Shown piece by piece: positions 1,269 through 37,768 of a stretch of 64,000 nt of DNA. The position numbers and the translations under genes are program-made. The notes beneath the pieces were generated by a model, which saw nothing but the letters and a program-made list of their open reading frames with translations, did no database searches and had not been told where the DNA came from. Each line of letters opens with the position of its first letter. Position 1 is the first letter of the stretch. Source of the stretch: Acidimicrobiales bacterium (lineage in GTDB: Bacteria > Actinomycetota > Acidimicrobiia > Acidimicrobiales > SHLQ01); assembly GCA_020629635.1 (NCBI GenBank), contig JAHDCX010000009.1, positions 62,001-126,000 on the forward strand. Direction: 5' to 3'.

Positions 1269-4200
1269 TCAGGAAACCGGCTGATCATCACGATCACGTG
1301 ACCCTCGTCGTCGCCGTCGCTCGCCGTGATCGGCACCTCGACGGAGTCGGCGCGGCGACGGTTGGTCGGTGACATCGACGACACCGTCGCGCAAGTCGAT
1401 CACGACCTCGTTCGGATCGCGACGAGGCCGGCTCGAACGGCGAACGTCACGCCACGTCCGATAGCGGCGCCAGCCCGTCCAGAGGCCGAGGAGCGCAAAG
1501 AGCACGAAGACCGCCGTGCCGAGGATGAGGAGGCGTTGCTCTTCCGTGGTTGCGCCGGCGAACGGGTTCAGGCTCGTTTGGCCGGTCCGAGACGCAAGCT
1601 CGACCGACGCCGTCGCCGAAACCAGTGCACTCGGGGCGATGTCGAGACGGCCTGCGATGGACCGAGCTTCGAACTCGACCGGGAACTCGAGCGCGTCTCC
1701 TCGCGGCGCGGGTGACGACACGACGAAGGTGAGCTCGGCCGACTCCCCGACACGGAGCACGTTCGACGCCCGGAGCAGACGAACGTCGCGCGAGCCGTCG
1801 AAGCTCGTGTTGACGGACAGCTCATCACTCGACAGGTCCCGGACCGTGAACGGAACGCTCCACGCGTCGTCGAGGTCGGCCACCACACGTGTCTGTGTGG
1901 CGTTGATGTCGCCAGCGTTGGTGAGCGTGATCTGCCACGTGACATCGAACCAGTCGTCGCGGGCCGCTTCGACGACGTCGATGGGCACCGCAACGATCTC
2001 GAGTTGCGGGGTCGGGTTCTCGACCGTCACGGACGTCGCGAGGTCGTTGTCGCCGGGCTCCTGGTTCTGATCGGGGTCCGGGTCGGCACCATCGGTCGAG
2101 TCGTCGATCACGGTGCCAGAGAATGGATCTGCGCCGACGGCGAAGGCAGACGAACGATACGGCCCCGGGAAGGCCTTGGACGGCAGCACAAATGCGTCGT
2201 ACTGGATGCGGCACTGTTCTTCGGGTCGCAGTTCGACACCGGACACGAGCACGGGGTCGATCGCACCACCGTCGTAGGAGGATGATGCCTTGCCGGTGCA
2301 CGGCGAGTCCGCCTCGGTCCGCACCCGTGAGGTCACGAAGGTCGACCCGAGGCCAAATGCCTGGGCGAGCTGGTCGTGGACCTCGACGTCGGTGAGCGGG
2401 AATGGCCCTGCGTTCTGCACGAGGATCTCGTAGGTGACGGCGACGCTCCCGTCCGCCCGCACACTGGGCTCGCCGATCACCTGTTTCGCGACGCCGAGCT
2501 CGCCCTGCACCGAAAGCCGTGCGAGCGTCGTCGCTTCGATGACTTCGCCATCGTCACCACCAGATCCGAGGCCGACCCCACCCGGGGTCCGTGCGCTGAC
2601 GTTGACCCGGGTGTGGTACACGCCGCGGGTTTCGGGAGCGAGTGTCAGGTCGAGTTCGATGGTTGCCGTTTCACCCGCCGGGAGCGTGTCCCAGCCAGCG
2701 AGGAGAGAGACGTCACCGGCAGGGCGAGGGGGCTCATAGGGAATCGGCTCCCCGTCGGCGTCGAGCTCGACGTCCGGCCGCGGCGGAATCCCGAGACCGT
2801 CGTAGTTCTCGTTGACCGTCAGGGTGTCGGACCGAATATCTCGGACAATGATCGTCGACTGCCAGCCAAAGGCCGACAGGAGGTCCTCACGGACTTGGAG
2901 ACTCCGGAGTTCGATGTCGCCCGCGTTGGTGACGTCGACGGCCAGCGACACATCGAAGCGTCCGCTCGGGCTCCACTCCGGGCGCCGCGTGAGGCGCTGC
3001 TCGACGACGAGATCCGGTTGTTCGACGAACACCACGGGTTGGCTTGCCGTGGTGACAACTCCGACCGGTGTTCCCGTGGGCGACACGGCCGACGCTTCCG
3101 CACCCCACTCGAACGGACCGAGAGAGTTGCCGGGCTCGACCTCGGTCACCGTCACGATCTCTGCCGCGGCACCAACGGCGAGGGTCTGACCCCATCGCAC
3201 GATTTCGCCCCGCCGGTCGGGCTCATCGGGGGCGAGCACGTCGATCGTCGAGGAGCGAATCTCCGTGGTCCCCGCCGGTGCGCCCTGGAAGATCGCGAAG
3301 ATGTCCTCGCCGAGACGAATGTTTTCGAGATCGGTCGTACCGCTGTTGCGAATCGAGTACTGCGTTTCGATCGTGTAGGAGCCGTCACGGTTGTTGGTGA
3401 CGGATTGTTCGAGGACGGAGAGCGAGACCGACGGCAGGTCGATCGTGGTCTGCTTGCTCGCCTCGGTGATCGCCTGCGCTGGGGAGACCGCGATCACGTC
3501 GATGGGAGCCATGAAGGGTTCGACCTCACCATCGGGACGAACGGTGAACACGACGGTCAGTTCGCCCACCCCGCCAGCGACGATCGATTGTCCCGGCGTC
3601 AACATGGAGATGGACTCTCGGGTGGTGAACTGCTCGGAGACCTCGAACGATTCGCTGAGCAATCCATCGACCCGATGCTCGACATCGCCGAACAGTGCGT
3701 TGGCATCCAACGCGACGTCGAGGTCGTCGAGTCGGACATCGCCCTCGTTGACCACCGTGAGATCCAGTACGACTCGGAACGACCCGTCGCCCATGTTCTC
3801 GACCAGTTCGATCTCCGACGAGACCGACACGGCTGGAGCCTCCTCGAACGAAACCGGGGGGGTCTCGATCTCGACGGAGGCAATCTTGCCCGACGGGGAC
3901 GGAGCAGTGATCGTCGTCGGCACGGTCCACGGACCGAGGGCGTCGACCGGTCGAACGACGAGCGATCGCTCGACCCGACAAACGCCGCCCGGCGCCAACG
4001 GCTCGGCCGACGTGATGAGCGCGCACTCGTCGAGAAGGAGGGCCTGCTCGACAAGACGATCGCCGAACTGGCTCGTCAAACCATCGTCGATCTCCAGTCC
4101 GACCAACGGCACATCGCTCGTGTTCTCCACGGACATGGAGAACGTGGCGTCGTACAACCCATTGCCCCGATTGCCGTCGACCACCAGGGAGGACTCCGCA

Positions 4201-7200
4201 ATGGCCGCGACCGTCTCGCTGAAGTTGACGTCATCGGGAGTCGCCGAGCTGGTGACGATCGCGCCCGCAGGTGAGGTGGCGTCGGCGACGAAGGTGGTCG
4301 CCCACGGGCCGAGTTCGCTCAGTGGACGCACGATGGTGCTGGTTCGGAGTTCGCAGGTCGAACCGGGTCCGAGCGGAGCGACGAAACCGACCTCGGAACA
4401 CCCGTCGCTCGTGATGGTGAGGTCGACGATCCGTTCACCGAACGTCGAGCCGATTGCGTCGTTGAGGCGAACCTCATACAACGGCACATCGCCGTCATTA
4501 CGGACGATCACCCCGTGATCGACCGTGTAGGTGCCGTCGCCGTTGTTGACGATGTCGCTGCGGTTCGCCGCGACGGCGATCGACGGTGATTCCTCGAGCA
4601 GCACCTCCGGCACACCGAGCGACGAGAAGGCCTGCACCGAACCCGACTCCACCACCGGAGCCAACTCGACCGCAACGACCCCGAAGCGATCTTGTGCGCT
4701 GGGAGCGGCCGTCACCGCCCACGGTCCGAGTTGAGCGGCTGGTCGAATCCTGCCGATGACCGAGACCACGCAGGTGTCGTCGACGCCGAGTCCGGTTCCG
4801 CAACTTCCGCCTCGCCGCGGCTCGGAGACGAGTACGCCACCGAACACCGAATCGAAGTCGTCGACGACGGCGATCTGGTCGACCGCGGCCACCCCGCGGT
4901 TCTGGAGAACGAGGCGATGCCGCACCGTGTAGGTCCCGTCGCCGTTGTTCTCGCTGGTCAGGGTTTCGTCGGCGACGGAGAACATCGGGATGGATCGGCT
5001 CACCGCGGCGGGCGTCGATTCGACCGGCTCCAATGTCGGCGGGATTCCGGTGGCGGTCGTCTCGAGACGCCAGGGCCCTGGCTCCCCGGCGACGTCGACG
5101 ACGACCGTCGCAAACCAGTCGCCGGATGCGCCGACCCGCAGGATGTCGCTGGCCTCGAGGAAGCTGGCGGAGCCCGCCGTCCACGTCGGGGCGATGACAA
5201 AGTCGTCGCTCGAGAGGCCCTCGACCACGATCGGGCGGCCGTCGAAGGCGGCCTGGAGGTCGAGTACTGCCGAGAGCGACCCAACGTTGACGTCGCCAGT
5301 GTTCTCGATTCGTCCGGTGAGTCGGAACCGCAGCTGACCGTCGTCGAGGGTGTCGATGCCGAGCACCCGAAGATCGGACACCAACTCAGGGTTTTCGACG
5401 AACGTGATCGGGTCAGATGCTCCGGTGGCGTCGACGACGACCGTCGATGTTGAGGACGCCACCGCCGAGGCGGACACGTTCCAGTCTTCGAGCTGGGCGG
5501 CTGGCGCAACCTCGACGGTGAATGCGACACGGCACGAGCCGGCCTCACCATTCGCCCCCGACGGCAGCAACGGTTGGCGGGGCGACACGCGTCCGCAGGT
5601 GTCTGCCCCGGCCCGGACGCTCTGTACGCCATCACCAAACGTCCCCGCGATGTCGTTGTCGACGAATACCGAGGTGAGCGGGACGTCGCCGGCGTTCGTG
5701 ACGACGAACTCGAGGTCGACGGCGTGCACGCCGTTCCCGAAGTTTCGGGTCGGCTCGTGTCGAACGGCGACCTCAATCTCCGGCGACTCCGGGAGATCGA
5801 ATTCGATCGGGTCGCCCGTCTCGATCAGCTCTTCGCCTCTCGGAGCGACTGCGCTGACGATTGGGGTGATCGTCCAGTCCGCGATGGCCGCGCCGGGACG
5901 GACGGACACGTCGTAACGGATCGCGCAGCGATCGCCGGGCTCGAGATCGAGCCGGGACGCAAGGACCAGCGACGAGCGCGATCGGCTCGGCGTCTCTGCG
6001 CCCGCGCAGGTGGTCGACAGCGCACGGAACTCCTGTGCGAAGACCCGACGTGGTTCGGTGGTCGATCCATCGCCGACGTCGATCCGGAGGAGCCCGTTTC
6101 GCAGATTCTGGTCACCGTCGTTGGTGATGGTCGCCGTGCCGGAGATTCGGTACGACCCGTCACCGACATTCACGATCGTCGGGGGTCGTACCTCGGAGGC
6201 GATCGAGGGGTTCTGGCTGAGGGTCAGCCCTGCCAGCGCGAAGTCCGTCGCAGAGCGCACACCGGATCGAGCCGTGACCTCGATCGGACCGCGGTAGTCC
6301 ACGCCTTCAGCGGTGGGCGCGATACCGGGCCACACGATGAGCTCGATCTCGACAACACAGGTCGACCCGACCGACATCGAGTTCGGCGATGCGAGAAGCC
6401 GGACGCGGCGTCCGACCCCGGTGTACCGATCGTCGATTCCTCCAGCGCAGGGACCATCGGCTTCGGCGCTGATCACCGAGACGTTCGTGCCCTCGCCGAA
6501 CAGTTCCTCGAGGTCGCGGATGATCGACAGCTCGGCCAGCGCCGTTTCGCCGTCATTGGTGACCGAGATCCGCTCTCGGAGCCGAACGGTGCCATCGGAG
6601 GCGAGGTTTGGCTCTTCGACCCAGCGGTGATCCACGTCGAGCGTGGGCGTTGGTGCACCAAAGCCCGCTGCGCCGCCGGTCGCCGTGTCGATCTGCGCAC
6701 CGGAGTTGGCCAGCACGGCCGTGAGACCGACGGTGACATCGTCGACCGACCCGCGGACACGCAGCTCAGGGTTGGGCGAACCGACTCCTTCGGACCACGC
6801 CGGATCGTCGAAGTCCGGTTCGTATTCGACGACGAACTCGAACGTCTGCGGCTTGCCGTCCCGCAACGGTTGGCGGCCGTCGAAGAGTTCGGTCTGGGCG
6901 GACCCGTCGAAGGCGTCTGACACGACTCCCTCGTAGAACTCCGGGACCTCCCACTCGGTCACCTCAGCCGACGAGAAGCCGGGTGCGCGCACGTCCAGCT
7001 CGACCTGGAAGTTGTCGATGATCGTGTCCGGGCTGGCGGGTCGCTGGTTCTTGAGCGCACGGGCGCTCGCATTGCGAAGATTGTTCGTGACGACGACGCG
7101 GTGGCGGGCGACGAAGCGCTGTCGATCGGCATCCCAGGTCGGGGCTTGTTCGACCGAGGCGTGCAGCACGAACGCCGGGCAACCGATGACCCCCAGCAGG

Positions 7201-7733
7201 TCGACGGCCGATGCCCCATCGTTGGACAGCAACACCTGATCGACGCCGGTGTGGACGTCGATGCGGGCACGTTGGTAGCCGCCGAGCCGTCCTGACGTGA
7301 CGAGTGTGCGACCTTCTTCGGCGATCTCGAGTGAGCCGAGCACGGTGACGGCATCGAGTCGGCGCGTCACGTCGTTGAGCGAGGCGTCCACCCGGACGGT
7401 ATCGAGTCGGTTGACTCGGGCGAAGAGCCATTCGGTGTGGAACAGCGGCTCCGGCAACGTCACCTGGACTCGGCTTCCGGCATCCGGCAGGCGGATCGCG
7501 GGACCCGAGTCGGTCATGACGGCTTCTGCGCCGCGGGCAATCACGACGCCGTCGGTCGGCTCGACCCCGTCGACGTCTTGGACGGCGAGTGGGATGCGAA
7601 CGGGGGCTCGACACCAACTGGCCTCTTCACGTGGAGCCGCGTCGTCACCCTGCGCCGAGATCGCCACGATGCCCAAGAGCAGGCAGGCTGCGACGAGCGC
7701 AAAGATCTTCGCCAGTGTTTTCGACTTCGACAC
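1269..7733 (-). CDS. Giant secreted, membrane-anchored protein with tandem Ig-like (DUF11-type) repeats
   Basis: 2154 residues from a GTG start. Residues 1-28 form a signal peptide (basic SKSKTLAK, hydrophobic core, A-x-A-like cut). A unique N-terminal region of about 190 residues follows, then about 13 modules of roughly 110-150 residues. Each module has a core such as NNGDGTYTV, then V-x-N-x-GDVPL and D-D-x-x-x-x-FG, and most end in a 'G-P-W' beta strand segment. These resemble DUF11/conserved-repeat surface domains (beta-sandwich stalks). Near the C-terminus is one membrane helix (about 2067-2088, LLILGTAVFVLF) and then a 66-residue very basic cytoplasmic tail containing DPNEVVIDLRDGVVDVTD. 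The layout is a long cell-surface stalk or adhesin. There is no sortase motif. The ligand is unknown. Confidence 0.8.
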   Translation of the reverse strand: MSKSKTLAKIFALVAACLLLGIVAISAQGDDAAPREEASWCRAPVRIPLAVQDVDGVEPTDGVVIARGAEAVMTDSGPAIRLPDAGSRVQVTLPEPLFHTEWLFARVNRLDTVRVDASLNDVTRRLDAVTVLGSLEIAEEGRTLVTSGRLGGYQRARIDVHTGVDQVLLSNDGASAVDLLGVIGCPAFVLHASVEQAPTWDADRQRFVARHRVVVTNNLRNASARALKNQRPASPDTIIDNFQVELDVRAPGFSSAEVTEWEVPEFYEGVVSDAFDGSAQTELFDGRQPLRDGKPQTFEFVVEYEPDFDDPAWSEGVGSPNPELRVRGSVDDVTVGLTAVLANSGAQIDTATGGAAGFGAPTPTLDVDHRWVEEPNLASDGTVRLRERISVTNDGETALAELSIIRDLEELFGEGTNVSVISAEADGPCAGGIDDRYTGVGRRVRLLASPNSMSVGSTCVVEIELIVWPGIAPTAEGVDYRGPIEVTARSGVRSATDFALAGLTLSQNPSIASEVRPPTIVNVGDGSYRISGTATITNDGDQNLRNGLLRIDVGDGSTTEPRRVFAQEFRALSTTCAGAETPSRSRSSLVLASRLDLEPGDRCAIRYDVSVRPGAAIADWTITPIVSAVAPRGEELIETGDPIEFDLPESPEIEVAVRHEPTRNFGNGVHAVDLEFVVTNAGDVPLTSVFVDNDIAGTFGDGVQSVRAGADTCGRVSPRQPLLPSGANGEAGSCRVAFTVEVAPAAQLEDWNVSASAVASSTSTVVVDATGASDPITFVENPELVSDLRVLGIDTLDDGQLRFRLTGRIENTGDVNVGSLSAVLDLQAAFDGRPIVVEGLSSDDFVIAPTWTAGSASFLEASDILRVGASGDWFATVVVDVAGEPGPWRLETTATGIPPTLEPVESTPAAVSRSIPMFSVADETLTSENNGDGTYTVRHRLVLQNRGVAAVDQIAVVDDFDSVFGGVLVSEPRRGGSCGTGLGVDDTCVVSVIGRIRPAAQLGPWAVTAAPSAQDRFGVVAVELAPVVESGSVQAFSSLGVPEVLLEESPSIAVAANRSDIVNNGDGTYTVDHGVIVRNDGDVPLYEVRLNDAIGSTFGERIVDLTITSDGCSEVGFVAPLGPGSTCELRTSTIVRPLSELGPWATTFVADATSPAGAIVTSSATPDDVNFSETVAAIAESSLVVDGNRGNGLYDATFSMSVENTSDVPLVGLEIDDGLTSQFGDRLVEQALLLDECALITSAEPLAPGGVCRVERSLVVRPVDALGPWTVPTTITAPSPSGKIASVEIETPPVSFEEAPAVSVSSEIELVENMGDGSFRVVLDLTVVNEGDVRLDDLDVALDANALFGDVEHRVDGLLSESFEVSEQFTTRESISMLTPGQSIVAGGVGELTVVFTVRPDGEVEPFMAPIDVIAVSPAQAITEASKQTTIDLPSVSLSVLEQSVTNNRDGSYTIETQYSIRNSGTTDLENIRLGEDIFAIFQGAPAGTTEIRSSTIDVLAPDEPDRRGEIVRWGQTLAVGAAAEIVTVTEVEPGNSLGPFEWGAEASAVSPTGTPVGVVTTASQPVVFVEQPDLVVEQRLTRRPEWSPSGRFDVSLAVDVTNAGDIELRSLQVREDLLSAFGWQSTIIVRDIRSDTLTVNENYDGLGIPPRPDVELDADGEPIPYEPPRPAGDVSLLAGWDTLPAGETATIELDLTLAPETRGVYHTRVNVSARTPGGVGLGSGGDDGEVIEATTLARLSVQGELGVAKQVIGEPSVRADGSVAVTYEILVQNAGPFPLTDVEVHDQLAQAFGLGSTFVTSRVRTEADSPCTGKASSSYDGGAIDPVLVSGVELRPEEQCRIQYDAFVLPSKAFPGPYRSSAFAVGADPFSGTVIDDSTDGADPDPDQNQEPGDNDLATSVTVENPTPQLEIVAVPIDVVEAARDDWFDVTWQITLTNAGDINATQTRVVADLDDAWSVPFTVRDLSSDELSVNTSFDGSRDVRLLRASNVLRVGESAELTFVVSSPAPRGDALEFPVEFEARSIAGRLDIAPSALVSATASVELASRTGQTSLNPFAGATTEEQRLLILGTAVFVLFALLGLWTGWRRYRTWRDVRRSSRPRRDPNEVVIDLRDGVVDVTDQPSPRRLRRGADHGERRRRRGSRDRDDQPVS

Positions 7734-32647: not shown

Positions 32648-33124
32648 CTAGCCGGATGCTGCTGCTCGTTCGGCAATGGTTGCGATGAAGGAGCCTTCGA
32701 GTCCGCCCTCGGCGTACACGTAACACATCATGGTTCGGTCGCCATCGCGCCAGCCGTCCTCGGTCGGGACAAAGACATTCCAGTCGAAGTCATCGGGGAG
32801 ATCGGTCTGCCGAACGACCGCATCGCCGACATCGTCGAAGCATCGCTGGAACACTCGATCCCAGTACCCCTCGTCGTCGTCGGCGGGGTACTCCCCATCG
32901 GCTGAGTCGATCGAGTACAGCGAGACGAACTGGCCATCGTGGGCCGCGTCGCACGGCGTGGTCTCCGTGCGATCGAACTCTTCGTCCGGAACGATGAAGC
33001 AATCTCCGGGACGGACTTCGGCGTTTGAGGTGGTGTCGCGATCCCGTACCCAGCCGATCGCCACGACGAGGAGGAACGCGAGTGCGACGAGCACCTTCGG
33101 GTCCTGGAGAGGGAACGCCTTCAT
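32648..33124 (-). CDS. Septum-formation-like membrane protein
   Basis: 158 residues from the ATG at 33124 (MKAFPLQDPKVLVALAFLLVVAIGW). The residues around 10-28 form one membrane helix. The extracytoplasmic part matches the Septum_form pattern: VRPGDCFIVPDEE, then CDAAHDGQFVSLYS and CFDDVGDAVVR, with four cysteines. Family members are small actinobacterial envelope proteins with roles at the septum suggested only by association. A longer frame up to 33226 exists, but it would abut the start of the divergent sigma gene. Confident at family level, not on function. Confidence 0.7.
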   Translation of the reverse strand: MKAFPLQDPKVLVALAFLLVVAIGWVRDRDTTSNAEVRPGDCFIVPDEEFDRTETTPCDAAHDGQFVSLYSIDSADGEYPADDDEGYWDRVFQRCFDDVGDAVVRQTDLPDDFDWNVFVPTEDGWRDGDRTMMCYVYAEGGLEGSFIATIAERAAASG

Positions 33125-33229
33125 CACCAAGGGATCGGCGGACGCTCCTGGGGTTCCGCATGGGTCGTGCGCATCACGCGAGAACGCGCCTGATACGTCT
33201 GAGCCTGCGGCGGACACATACTGCATGTG

Positions 33230-33730
33230 ATGGTTGCGGCGACCGATCGGCAGACGCGCTTCGAGTCCGTCTATCGCGCCCATGTTGCGGCGATCGGCCG
33301 CTATGCGTCTCGGCGAACAGATGCGGCCGACGCGGTGGATGTGGTGGCCGAGACGTTCGCCGTTGCGTGGCGGCGAATCGACGAGGTGCCGCCCGACGCC
33401 CTGCCGTGGTTGTACGGCGTCGCTCGCCGCGTACTCGCCAATCAGCGGCGCGGTGGCATTCGGCGGACTGCGCTCCACACCCGTCTTTGCGAGGCGTGGG
33501 TGCAACCGGTGTCTCCCCCGCCGGCACACCTCGAAACGCTCCGAACGGCGATCCATTCACTGACAGAAGCCGACCGCGAGATCCTTCTCCTGGCGGGTGC
33601 GGAGGAACTCTCGCCTAGAGAGATTGCGGTGGTGCTCGACCTGCGCCCTGAGGTTGCCCGCAACCGCCTGAGCCGAGCCCGCCAGCGCCTCCGAGACGCG
33701 ATGCCCGATGACGAAGGAGCGAGCGCATGA
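33230..33730 (+). CDS. ECF-type RNA polymerase sigma factor
   Basis: 166 residues. Region 2 is FESVYRAHVAAIGRYASRRTDAADAVDVVAETFAVAWRRIDEVP, and region 4 is SLTEADREILLLAGAEELSPREIAVVLDLRPEVARNRLSRARQRLRDAM. This is a standard ECF sigma length. The next gene overlaps its end by 4 bases (ATGA) and encodes a one-helix membrane protein, the arrangement of sigma/anti-sigma pairs. The region-2 start codon could be the GTG at 33227 or ATG at 33230; the ATG is preferred. The extracytoplasmic signal is unknown. Confidence 0.88.
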   Translation: MVAATDRQTRFESVYRAHVAAIGRYASRRTDAADAVDVVAETFAVAWRRIDEVPPDALPWLYGVARRVLANQRRGGIRRTALHTRLCEAWVQPVSPPPAHLETLRTAIHSLTEADREILLLAGAEELSPREIAVVLDLRPEVARNRLSRARQRLRDAMPDDEGASA

Positions 33731-36408
33731 TGGACGAGGAAATCCGAGACCTCTTCGCCGAAACCGAACTCCAGATCGACCCGGGCAGCCGATCGGCCGA
33801 CCTGCTGTTGGAGAGTCTCAGAACGGCCCCTGCCCCGCTCCGTGGCCACGGAGATGACGTGGCTGCACCGCTGATCGACGGTCCAGCGGCTTGGGATCGG
33901 CCGCGAGTGTGGATATTGGCGGGCGCTGTTGCGGCCACAGCTGCCTTGATCATCGGGGCCTTGGAGTTGCGTGTCGACAACGCATCCGTCATCAGCGAGG
34001 CACCGGACCAAATCCAGGCGGACCAAAACGAAAGCGTCGACCTCATCTTCGTGAACGGCATGGCGAATCCCATCGTCATGTTCTTGGAGACCGACGTCGA
34101 CACCCCTTCATCGGCATTGACGGAGTGTGCGGCGGGCATCCGCGAGGTCACCGCCGGAAGTACCCCAGCTTCGATGGCCGTCGCATCGTTGCCGCCGTCG
34201 GGCCTCGGTGCATCCACGGTGCTGAGCGCACCTGGTGCGATAGGCGAGTGCCCTCCACAGTCCGATGCATGGACACTGTTCTCCCAACCGGCAAGCGGTG
34301 TTGAGCTCGCAACTGCAGATTCGAGCGCAACCACGAACCTGGGAGATGCGTACGCGCTACGGATCAGCGGGTTCGTGGCCAGTGATGTGAGGTCCATGGA
34401 ACTGATCGGCGACGCAGTCGTGGAGCAGACGTATCGCACCGCGTTCGGCCGCTTCTGGATCGACGCGCAGCTCGATCAGGAGATCATCGATCCGACGATG
34501 AACTTGTCCACCGTCCTACTCACGTTCCGCGATGGCACCGCCATCGAGCATGAACTGCTCGCCGAAACGACGTCGTCGACGTGTCGCGACTCTGGGTGCA
34601 TCCGCAGCTTCATCCGCCAACTCTCGCTTGATGCCGAAGCATCTGGTCAGGCTGCACAGGCGGACCGCCTTCGCGATGGGGTACTGACACAGGACGAATA
34701 CGACGACTCTGTTTCGGCCTTCATCGACTGCCTCGCATCCGCGTCCCTCGCCCGATCTGGGGTACCTACCGTCTTCGTGATTGAAGGAACTGCTGAGTTC
34801 GGCGCAGGAAAGACCTGCGAGCTGACCACGATGCGGTGGGTGGAATCGGCTCGCGCCGAAACGAACCTTCTCCTTCTTTCGGGCCCGAACGATCCGTTGG
34901 GTGGCACCGAAGAGGTGGTCGACGCCGAAACGACGCAGCCCGAACCTGATGGGTCCTCGGCGGCTCCAAATGAGCGCGAAGTGCTCTCGAGTATGTGGCG
35001 CGCGGAAGCGCAGCGGATCTTCCAGGGTGGTCTCGGACCCAACGAGATCCGCTCCCGGAACACTGGCGCGTACATCGACGAAGCCGCGATCGATGCCTAC
35101 GCCGACCACTTCGCCTGGACGTTCGAGGATCGCCTCACGATCGAGACCTCCGAGTACTCGCCCTTCCCTGATACGAGCGACGCTTTCACACCGATCGTCA
35201 CCGTGATCTCCCAAGACGACCCGACGAGATCCGCGGCCTTCGTGATGCGGTACACGCTCGAAACGTTCCGGCTCGAAGTCGAACGGCTACCGAGCCCAGA
35301 AGTCCCGGAGCTTTTCGTCGAGACGGCCGGGGACGGCACGACGGCGATCACCATCGCCACCGCCGGCACCGAAGGGTGGCCACAGGCCTTTGTCGACGGC
35401 GAGCCGGTGCCCACCGAGTCCGATCTCGGCTCCCGCACGACGACGATCACCATCGATGACCCATGGACGGGGACGAAAGTGGTCACGCTCGCCACGCCCA
35501 CGCCCGAAGCACCTGGAGCGGCAAGCTACGGCATCACCTTGGAGAAGGACTTCGCCGATCCCATAGCACCGCAGCAGCGCATCGAGCGCGCTGAACTACC
35601 GCTGGTGCTGAGAGTCCCCGAGCTCGGCACGCCAGACGAGCGAGCAGCCGTCGCATGCGCCCAAGGGGTGGCTGCGCTGCCCACAGCGAGATTTGTCACG
35701 CCTCCTGCGGTCCTCGAGCTGTCTGTAATCGATTCGACTCGGTTGGGTTCAGTCGCGCTCGCGTTGCACGATCCGGCCCGCACCTGGGCGGCGTTCTGCG
35801 AAAGGCCTGGTTCGGGTCCTTCAGGTATCCCTGGCTTCCCGCTCCCGCAGATAGGGCCGGACCAACCTGCGAACGTGCTCACCTTCGGGAGCATTGGCGC
35901 GACAACCCCCGACGGCGAACCGCTGATTTCGATTCACGGACAACTCCGTGCGGACGTCGCCGAGATCCGGCTCGACAGCCCCGATGTGATTGATCAGGCC
36001 TTCGCCGCAAGTGACGGCTGGTACGTGATCGACTCGGTCATCCAGCCGACAAGTCCCGTGTTGTCGGCGGATCAGACACCGCTCCTGATCACCTACACGG
36101 ACGGACGCGTCGAGTCTTTTGCCGAGGGATACGAGGTCGCCTGTGCCGGCCGCTCTTGCCTCGCGGACGTGCTTTCGAGCCTGCCAAGTTCGACCGAAAG
36201 CGGGGTCCTTCGCAACGGTGTCCTGACGCAAGAAGAGTACGACGCTGCAGCCAGGCGATTCAGCGGCTGCCTCGGAGCCGGGGCTGACGACCTTTCGTCC
36301 GCGGTGGTCACAATCGATGACGACCAAGAGTTCCCCTGCTACGTCGACTTCGCGCCAATCGACCAAGCGAGGATGTGGATTTCATGGGTGACGCTGGCTG
36401 ACGGGTGA
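33727..36408 (+). CDS. 893-residue membrane protein, probable partner of the ECF sigma factor, with internal duplication
   Basis: A cytoplasmic head of about 60 residues (EEIRDLFAETELQIDPGSRSADLLLE) precedes one membrane helix at 61-80 (VWILAGAVAATAALIIGALE) and a long outside region. That region holds two homologous halves, about residues 130-385 and 637-885. Both have a Cys-rich start, an ISG or IHG strand, an LL(T/I)-x-x-DG strand, and a shared stretch GVLTQ(D/E)EYD followed by a CL pair. A central domain lies between. The head could bind the sigma factor, but lacks a zinc anti-sigma motif. The overlap with the sigma gene supports that role. Not recognised as a named family. Confidence 0.65.
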   Translation: MMDEEIRDLFAETELQIDPGSRSADLLLESLRTAPAPLRGHGDDVAAPLIDGPAAWDRPRVWILAGAVAATAALIIGALELRVDNASVISEAPDQIQADQNESVDLIFVNGMANPIVMFLETDVDTPSSALTECAAGIREVTAGSTPASMAVASLPPSGLGASTVLSAPGAIGECPPQSDAWTLFSQPASGVELATADSSATTNLGDAYALRISGFVASDVRSMELIGDAVVEQTYRTAFGRFWIDAQLDQEIIDPTMNLSTVLLTFRDGTAIEHELLAETTSSTCRDSGCIRSFIRQLSLDAEASGQAAQADRLRDGVLTQDEYDDSVSAFIDCLASASLARSGVPTVFVIEGTAEFGAGKTCELTTMRWVESARAETNLLLLSGPNDPLGGTEEVVDAETTQPEPDGSSAAPNEREVLSSMWRAEAQRIFQGGLGPNEIRSRNTGAYIDEAAIDAYADHFAWTFEDRLTIETSEYSPFPDTSDAFTPIVTVISQDDPTRSAAFVMRYTLETFRLEVERLPSPEVPELFVETAGDGTTAITIATAGTEGWPQAFVDGEPVPTESDLGSRTTTITIDDPWTGTKVVTLATPTPEAPGAASYGITLEKDFADPIAPQQRIERAELPLVLRVPELGTPDERAAVACAQGVAALPTARFVTPPAVLELSVIDSTRLGSVALALHDPARTWAAFCERPGSGPSGIPGFPLPQIGPDQPANVLTFGSIGATTPDGEPLISIHGQLRADVAEIRLDSPDVIDQAFAASDGWYVIDSVIQPTSPVLSADQTPLLITYTDGRVESFAEGYEVACAGRSCLADVLSSLPSSTESGVLRNGVLTQEEYDAAARRFSGCLGAGADDLSSAVVTIDDDQEFPCYVDFAPIDQARMWISWVTLADG

Positions 36409-36490: not shown

Positions 36491-37768
36491 ATGCCCACCG
36501 CACTCCCCCGAACGTCGGTCGAAGTCACCGACTTTCAGGTGGTCCGGGACGAAACCGAACGTCTCGCTGCCCGCCTCACGCCCGAAGACCAACAGATCCA
36601 GTCGATGCCCGATGTCTCGCCAACGAAATGGCATCGAGCGCACATCACCTGGTTCTTCGAGACGTTCCTGCTCCTCCCCCACCTTCCCGACTACGAGCTC
36701 TACGACGAGGTGTTCCAGTTCCTCTTCAACTCGTACTACGAGCAAGCCGGCCCCCGACACGCCCGCCACGAACGAGGACTGATCTCCCGTCCGACCGCCG
36801 ACGAGGTGACGGCCTACCGACGCCACGTCGACGCGGCGATGCGTCGGCTCATCGACGAGGTCGTGCCCGCCAACGACGACCTGGCACAACTCGTTCGTCT
36901 CGGACTGCACCATGAGCAACAGCATCAGGAGCTGATGCTCATGGACATCAAGCACGTGTTCTGGAAGAACCCCCTTCGACCCGCCCTCCACGAGCGGCCA
37001 GACCGTCCCGCCACCACGGTCGGGCCGCTCGGGTGGGTCACCCACGAGGGTGGGCTCGTCGAGATCGGCTACGAAGGCGACGGTTTCCACTTCGACAACG
37101 AAGGACCCCGCCACACCCAGTTCGTTGCGCCGTACGCCCTGGCCGACCGACTCGTCACCTGCGGCGAATGGCTCGAGTTCATGGCCGACGACGGCTACCA
37201 CGAGCCCATCCTGTGGCTGAGCGAAGGCTGGGCCACCATCACACGCGAAGGCTGGGAGGCGCCCTTCTACTGGGAGCCGACTGCGTCGGGCTGGCACGTC
37301 CACACGCTGCACGGCATGCAACCGGTCGACCCCGACGAACCCGTCGTCCATCTCAGCTACTACGAAGCCGATGCGTTCGCCCGATGGGCGGGTGCCCGCC
37401 TCCCGACCGAAGCCGAATGGGAACACGCCGCCCACCGATCGCTCGGCGACGCACAACCCGCCGGCAACCTCGCGGATCGAGGACACCTCCACCCGGTGCC
37501 AGCCGCAACCGCCGACGGATCACTTCGACAGATGTTCGGCGATGTCTGGGAGTGGACCTCGAGTTCGTACTCGCCATACCCCGGATTCGCCCCGGCCGAG
37601 GGCGCTGTCGGCGAATACAACGGCAAGTTCATGGTCAACCAGTACGTGCTGCGCGGCGGCTGTTGCGCCACCCCGGCCGGCCATGTGCGAGCGACCTACC
37701 GGAACTTCTTCCCCACCCACAGCCGCTGGATGTTCTCCGGCCTTCGACTCGCCAAGGACCTCACATGA
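36491..37768 (+). CDS. egtB: Ergothioneine biosynthesis sulfoxide synthase
   Basis: 425 residues, as in known EgtB. It joins a sulfur donor to hercynine (trimethylhistidine) using iron and O2. The DinB-like N-terminal domain supplies the three iron-binding histidines: H51 in KWHRAHITW, and H141 and H145 in LGLHHEQQHQELML. A formylglycine-generating-enzyme-like domain follows with EGPRHTQFVAPYALA, WEWTSSSYSPYPGF and the C-terminal FVNQ-like FMVNQYVLRGGCC. The next gene egtD overlaps by 4 bases (ATGA). The subtype (gamma-glutamylcysteine or cysteine as donor) cannot be told; egtA and egtC are not in this window. Confidence 0.93.
   Translation: MPTALPRTSVEVTDFQVVRDETERLAARLTPEDQQIQSMPDVSPTKWHRAHITWFFETFLLLPHLPDYELYDEVFQFLFNSYYEQAGPRHARHERGLISRPTADEVTAYRRHVDAAMRRLIDEVVPANDDLAQLVRLGLHHEQQHQELMLMDIKHVFWKNPLRPALHERPDRPATTVGPLGWVTHEGGLVEIGYEGDGFHFDNEGPRHTQFVAPYALADRLVTCGEWLEFMADDGYHEPILWLSEGWATITREGWEAPFYWEPTASGWHVHTLHGMQPVDPDEPVVHLSYYEADAFARWAGARLPTEAEWEHAAHRSLGDAQPAGNLADRGHLHPVPAATADGSLRQMFGDVWEWTSSSYSPYPGFAPAEGAVGEYNGKFMVNQYVLRGGCCATPAGHVRATYRNFFPTHSRWMFSGLRLAKDLT

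Follow-up and report, generated by a model that had tools for sequence, protein, structure and literature searches.

The 64,000-nt stretch of an Acidimicrobiales contig analysed in this study (the window) carries, at 33230-36408, an ECF sigma factor gene overlapped by the gene for an 893-residue membrane protein. The pair probably represents a two-gene sigma/anti-sigma cassette, in which a class-II-like cytoplasmic tail of the partner would restrain the sigma factor for as long as no envelope signal reaches the partner's ectodomain. The genes overlap, the partner has a single-helix topology and a duplicated outer domain, the pairing is conserved in other genomes, the domain recurs beside ECF genes, and an element upstream of the sigma gene is also conserved. 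None of the family libraries searched contains this sensor-like domain, and it is the ectodomain that is new, the two-gene arrangement being already known.

The sigma gene (33230..33730, + strand) begins with ATG, with an in-frame GTG at 33227 as a possible alternative start, and specifies a protein of 166 aa. Sigma70_r2 and Sigma70_r4_2 are both found in it over the curated Pfam cut-offs, and SigL and CnrH are among PDB sequence matches; with both of these regions present, region 3 absent and a length below about 200 aa, it has the make-up of an ECF sigma factor. The partner gene (33727..36408, + strand) shares the four nucleotides ATGA with it, and the original prediction of an ECF sigma factor with an overlapping 893-residue partner was right in coordinates, lengths and overlap. 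Directly downstream of the pair (36491-37768) is a gene for EgtB, of ergothioneine biosynthesis (TIGR03440, 587 bits), and a Septum_form domain protein (E 5e-10) is encoded divergently from the sigma gene (32648-33172, - strand). Elsewhere in the window, a 2154-aa ORF with DUF7507/DUF11 matches (1269-7733, - strand) probably specifies a large surface protein.

The partner, a proposed membrane-bound anti-sigma factor, starts with a cytoplasmic tail of 60 residues (33727..33906) that may bind the sigma factor, followed by a TM helix at about residues 61-79 (33907..33963). The Kyte-Doolittle maximum there is 2.29 and every other separate segment stays at or below 1.3, in agreement with the one membrane helix foreseen. 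The view that this is not a zinc anti-sigma factor also held, as residues 1-60 contain neither HxxxCxxC nor any cysteine, and a zinc-type class I reading was therefore rejected. A class I domain of any kind is not recognisable either, the tail measuring 60 aa against about 100 aa for an ASDI and giving no match in Pfam or NCBIfam. For the partner as a whole nothing rises above the Pfam cut-off, and the anti-sigma models of Pfam and NCBIfam do not match. Membership of SHOCT (19 bits against a Pfam cut-off of 27) was rejected, as was that of CU044_5270 and of NF033790 (CnrY-type), neither of which gave a match. In its layout the pair has features of a class II (CnrY-type) factor, namely a short cytoplasmic domain, one TM helix and an adjoining ECF gene, and the first 40 residues match an N-terminal profile of 69 ECF partners modestly, scoring 16.4 where the best of 100 column shuffles reached 11.7. 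The full-length AlphaFold model of the partner (pLDDT 31) is unusable, so that two tail helices, residues 4-11 and 22-32, which appear in a partner model of pLDDT about 30, are suggested rather than established. The tail, short and without a zinc motif, bears a weak resemblance to those of class II (CnrY-type) anti-sigma factors.

Outside the membrane the partner carries two copies of one domain, copy 1 at residues 100-385 (34024..34881) and copy 2 at residues 610-893 (35554..36405). Their homology, which had been proposed from an alignment along cysteines and a shared motif, was confirmed by self-alignment with BLASTP (E 3e-10 over 145 aa, 28% identity) and by a local Smith-Waterman alignment that spans most of both segments and scores 133, whereas 1000 shuffles that preserved composition reached 74 at most. 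The strongest stretch between the halves covers few residues around a single motif, which might point to a compositional or chance effect; this is refuted by the shuffles and by the fact that both copies independently match the single copy of the orthologues described below (z 36.2/38.9 for copy 1, 19.7/10.3 for copy 2), and its probability is negligible. Each half falls into two modules, one a beta module that is Ig-like, the other helical and bearing DGVLTQxEYD, a division that had gone unnoticed in the original prediction. In copy 1 the beta module lies at residues about 193-277 (34303..34557) and the helical EYD module at about 286-384 (34582..34878; alignment A3). The motif itself reads DGVLTQDEYD at residues 317-326 (34675-34704) and NGVLTQEEYD at 830-839 (36214-36243), matching the predicted GVLTQ(D/E)EYD. 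The cysteine register was likewise upheld: C134, C175, C286, C291, C335 and C364 of the first half, the last four in the helical module, align with cysteines of the second, and all six are invariant across seven homologous copies, as are one G and one E inside DGVLTQxEYD. This conservation suggests that disulfides may form in the ectodomain copies. The AlphaFold model of copy 1 has a mean pLDDT of 68.9, and its beta module (model residues 94-178) resembles Ig constant domains over 82 residues with Z 6.3, where 8 would be the firm level; the profile of this module also marginally matches the Ig-like repeats of Bap (E 6e-4). Between the copies lies a middle region, residues about 413-600 (34963..35526), another feature beyond the original prediction. 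It is shared with the orthologue in genome G012 (alignment A1), and a distant match to it occurs in G034 near a contig end.

Relatives of the pair were sought in 19 genomes of the family, and an orthologous pair was found in two others of the same genus, G012 and G016, where the sigma factors are 59-60% identical and the partners 29-35% identical over the matched part. A scan of genome contigs with the whole partner gave no relatives. The orthologous partners carry a single copy of the domain, followed by an unrelated PD40/TolB-like C-terminal region that replaces copy 2, so the duplication is seen only in the genome studied here. Copy 2 has diverged about as far from the single copy of the orthologues as it has from copy 1, so that the duplication is not a recent event. 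The PD40/TolB-like region also matches in G024, G328 and G001, with no sigma gene in the stretches examined. The pair is kept in all three genomes while the neighbouring genes differ, which is consistent with a two-gene cassette. Within the wider clade, sigma factors are 37-49% identical and the partners downstream carry different ectodomains: a single-TM protein, its ectodomain of another kind, is encoded after each of five further related sigma genes of the family, and two further related sigma proteins, a second sigma factor in each of G012 and G016, themselves carry a fused TM segment and ectodomain. At L014 (5777-7687, + strand) and L015 (6612-8411, - strand) the reading frame of an ECF sigma factor runs on into a TM helix and an ectodomain; only about 15 residues separate region 4 from the membrane, there is no zinc-finger domain, and TGTAACGCGCGGG is present upstream of both genes. 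At L017 (66-2363, - strand) the ECF partner has neocarzinostatin-like domains (Pfam PF00960 in three stretches, NCBIfam chromo_anti in four).

Upstream of the sigma gene, at 33190..33220 (+ strand), there is a promoter-like bipartite element, CTGATACG-N14-GGACANNTA, a candidate autoregulated ECF promoter. In G012 and G016 the orthologous sigma gene is preceded by these boxes at this spacing, the remaining upstream sequence being dissimilar, and the exact pattern, CTGATAC-N15-GGACA across the three loci, occurs once per genome in all three, always before this sigma gene. A degenerate form, defined with these upstream sequences already in view, lies no more than 120 nt upstream of seven of the 11 clade sigma genes, with nine matches in 338204 positions overall, and in only three of 71 AWWPG-linked loci (see below). 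A search for a regulon turned up no exact site in any of the three genomes besides the one already noted, and allowing two mismatches added seven matches to the three exact ones, against two for a reversed control, too few for naming a regulon. The element suggests that this sigma clade may be autoregulated.

The domain is also linked to ECF genes beyond the genus. Full-domain relatives occur in another family of the order, two in G361 and one in G035, and each directly follows or overlaps an ECF gene; further matches to the beta module in G216, G062, G210 and G590 (E 1.2e-4 or better) directly follow ECF genes as well. Outside the genus-level orthologues, all of the seven best beta-module matches adjoin an ECF gene. 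Matches to the beta region at E 7e-4 or worse (G309, G174, G179, G422 and G604) are without a sigma gene and look spurious, that of G309 being an ApbC-like protein, and they were rejected. Proteins matched by the EYD module only are mostly putative lipoproteins without a sigma gene, the exceptions being in G243 and G042, and none was found near L051 in G311, which matches through this module only. In G454, G564, G706 and G715 (L078-L081, L084-L092) there are many unnamed putative lipoproteins that carry one isolated DGxVTxxEYE...C module; several of them lie close together in one genome, and no sigma gene was found with them. The expected linkage to sigma factors thus stands for the full domain and fails for the GVLTQEEYD motif alone, because the helical module occurs in such lipoproteins. 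Dissimilar halves, or homologues away from sigma genes, had been named as grounds for abandoning the idea; the halves are homologous and full-domain homologues lie beside ECF genes, so neither applies to the full domain.

A broader set of ectodomains, AWWPG, was collected by a scan seeded on the AWWP motif alone and comprises 75 loci, a few of them near-identical and nearly all from actinobacteria. An ECF gene is directly upstream in 70 of these, and, taking the nearest start codon, 57 of 69 partners overlap it by 4 nt. None of the 69 has HxxxCxxC, and their median tail is 55 aa. In profile comparison the window domain scores 36.7 (A2) and 68.9 (A3) against this set, where the best of 60 shuffled profiles gave 15.4 and 15.9 and reversed profiles 10.5 and 12.6, respectively; the AWWP motif itself is absent from both window copies. 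Profile likeness above controls and adjacency to an ECF gene are both found for the window domain, and, on this comparison, the AWWPG ectodomains are distant relatives of its beta module. Scans of six and then 50 AWWPG proteins gave only weak Pfam and NCBIfam matches, and the set is unnamed in both libraries. When 18950 NCBIfam models were compared with the 50 proteins, the most matched, all weakly, were CU044_5270 (13 proteins), an anti-sigma model (8) and CnrY/NccY (7).

Two other roles for the partner have to be weighed. It could be an activator or co-sensor of the sigma factor, serving as signal relay or scaffold instead of inhibitor, or it could do both, as RskA reportedly does. We consider this unlikely: the window partner lacks a recognised anti-sigma domain, and two related proteins tether the sigma factor directly to the membrane, so that some members may act by tethering without an inhibitory domain, but the size, topology, gene order and overlap of the partner fit anti-sigma factors, and matches to anti-sigma models, though weak, recur among its relatives. 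It is more unlikely still that the partner, as an adhesion or envelope protein, is above all an effector driven by the sigma factor, the pairing then reflecting regulation of the partner and not by it. Adhesins commonly contain Ig-like and Bap-like modules, the beta module has a Bap-like profile match, and the EYD module is shared with putative lipoproteins lacking a sigma gene; however, gene order, overlap, single TM helix and short tail persist while the ectodomains change, and a kept cytoplasmic tail would be superfluous in a pure effector.

For a sigma/anti-sigma cassette, we infer the following course of sigma binding, inhibition, signal, release and autoregulation. The sigma factor would be held inactive, probably by the short, zinc-free tail of its co-translated membrane partner, whose two short helices would clamp sigma2 and sigma4 as in the class II (CnrY-type) mode. 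The two divergent outer domains, each Ig-like with a cysteine-bearing helical part, probably sense an envelope condition or ligand, and the signal would free the sigma factor through a change of conformation or through proteolysis of the partner in successive steps. With the element at 33190-33220 as promoter, the freed sigma factor could then transcribe the operon to which it belongs. More speculatively, and with considerable doubt, anti-sigma factors that are zinc-free and class-II-like may form a large class without a name across Actinomycetota, in which tail and overlap are conserved and ectodomains exchanged; the present member would have two cysteine-bearing sensor heads per chain, placing one sigma factor under combined or thiol-dependent control.

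Among ECF sigma factors, no more than about one in three has a recognised class I anti-sigma partner nearby (PMC7406223), and pairs like this one suggest where missing ECF regulators may lie, among short-tailed, zinc-free proteins with exchangeable ectodomains that are unnamed in present family libraries. Class I factors (RsrA, RskA, RseA, RsiW) include membrane partners encoded beside an ECF gene, as here, and non-zinc forms among them exist, but the mean ASDI length is 101 aa (PMC7406223) compared with about 60 in the window tail, and the window partner lacks both a zinc motif and a Pfam or NCBIfam anti-sigma match. In the class II mode two helices bind sigma4 and sigma2 (PMC7406223, PMC4598750). 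CnrY/NccY share with the window partner a short zinc-free tail, one TM helix and an accompanying ECF gene, and their model NF033790 is weakly matched by seven of 50 distant relatives, though not by the window partner, which unlike CnrY/NccY is actinobacterial and has an ectodomain of about 800 residues. The actinobacterial CU044_5270 family (NF038083) weakly matches the N-terminus and TM helix of several ECF partners, but not the window partner, whose ectodomain differs. The beta module marginally resembles the Ig-like repeats of Bap (7dm0, 6m3a) in sequence pattern, Bap being a repeat adhesin and not a regulator. ECF48, ECF52 and ECF53 have the sigma factor fused to TM extensions (PMC8999054), as the L014 and L015 proteins fuse it to a TM helix and ectodomain, whereas the window pair consists of two genes without a zinc-finger domain. 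Membrane-anchored, non-zinc anti-sigma factors are already known, and the novelty is narrower than originally implied, lying in an ectodomain that is new and duplicated only in this genome.
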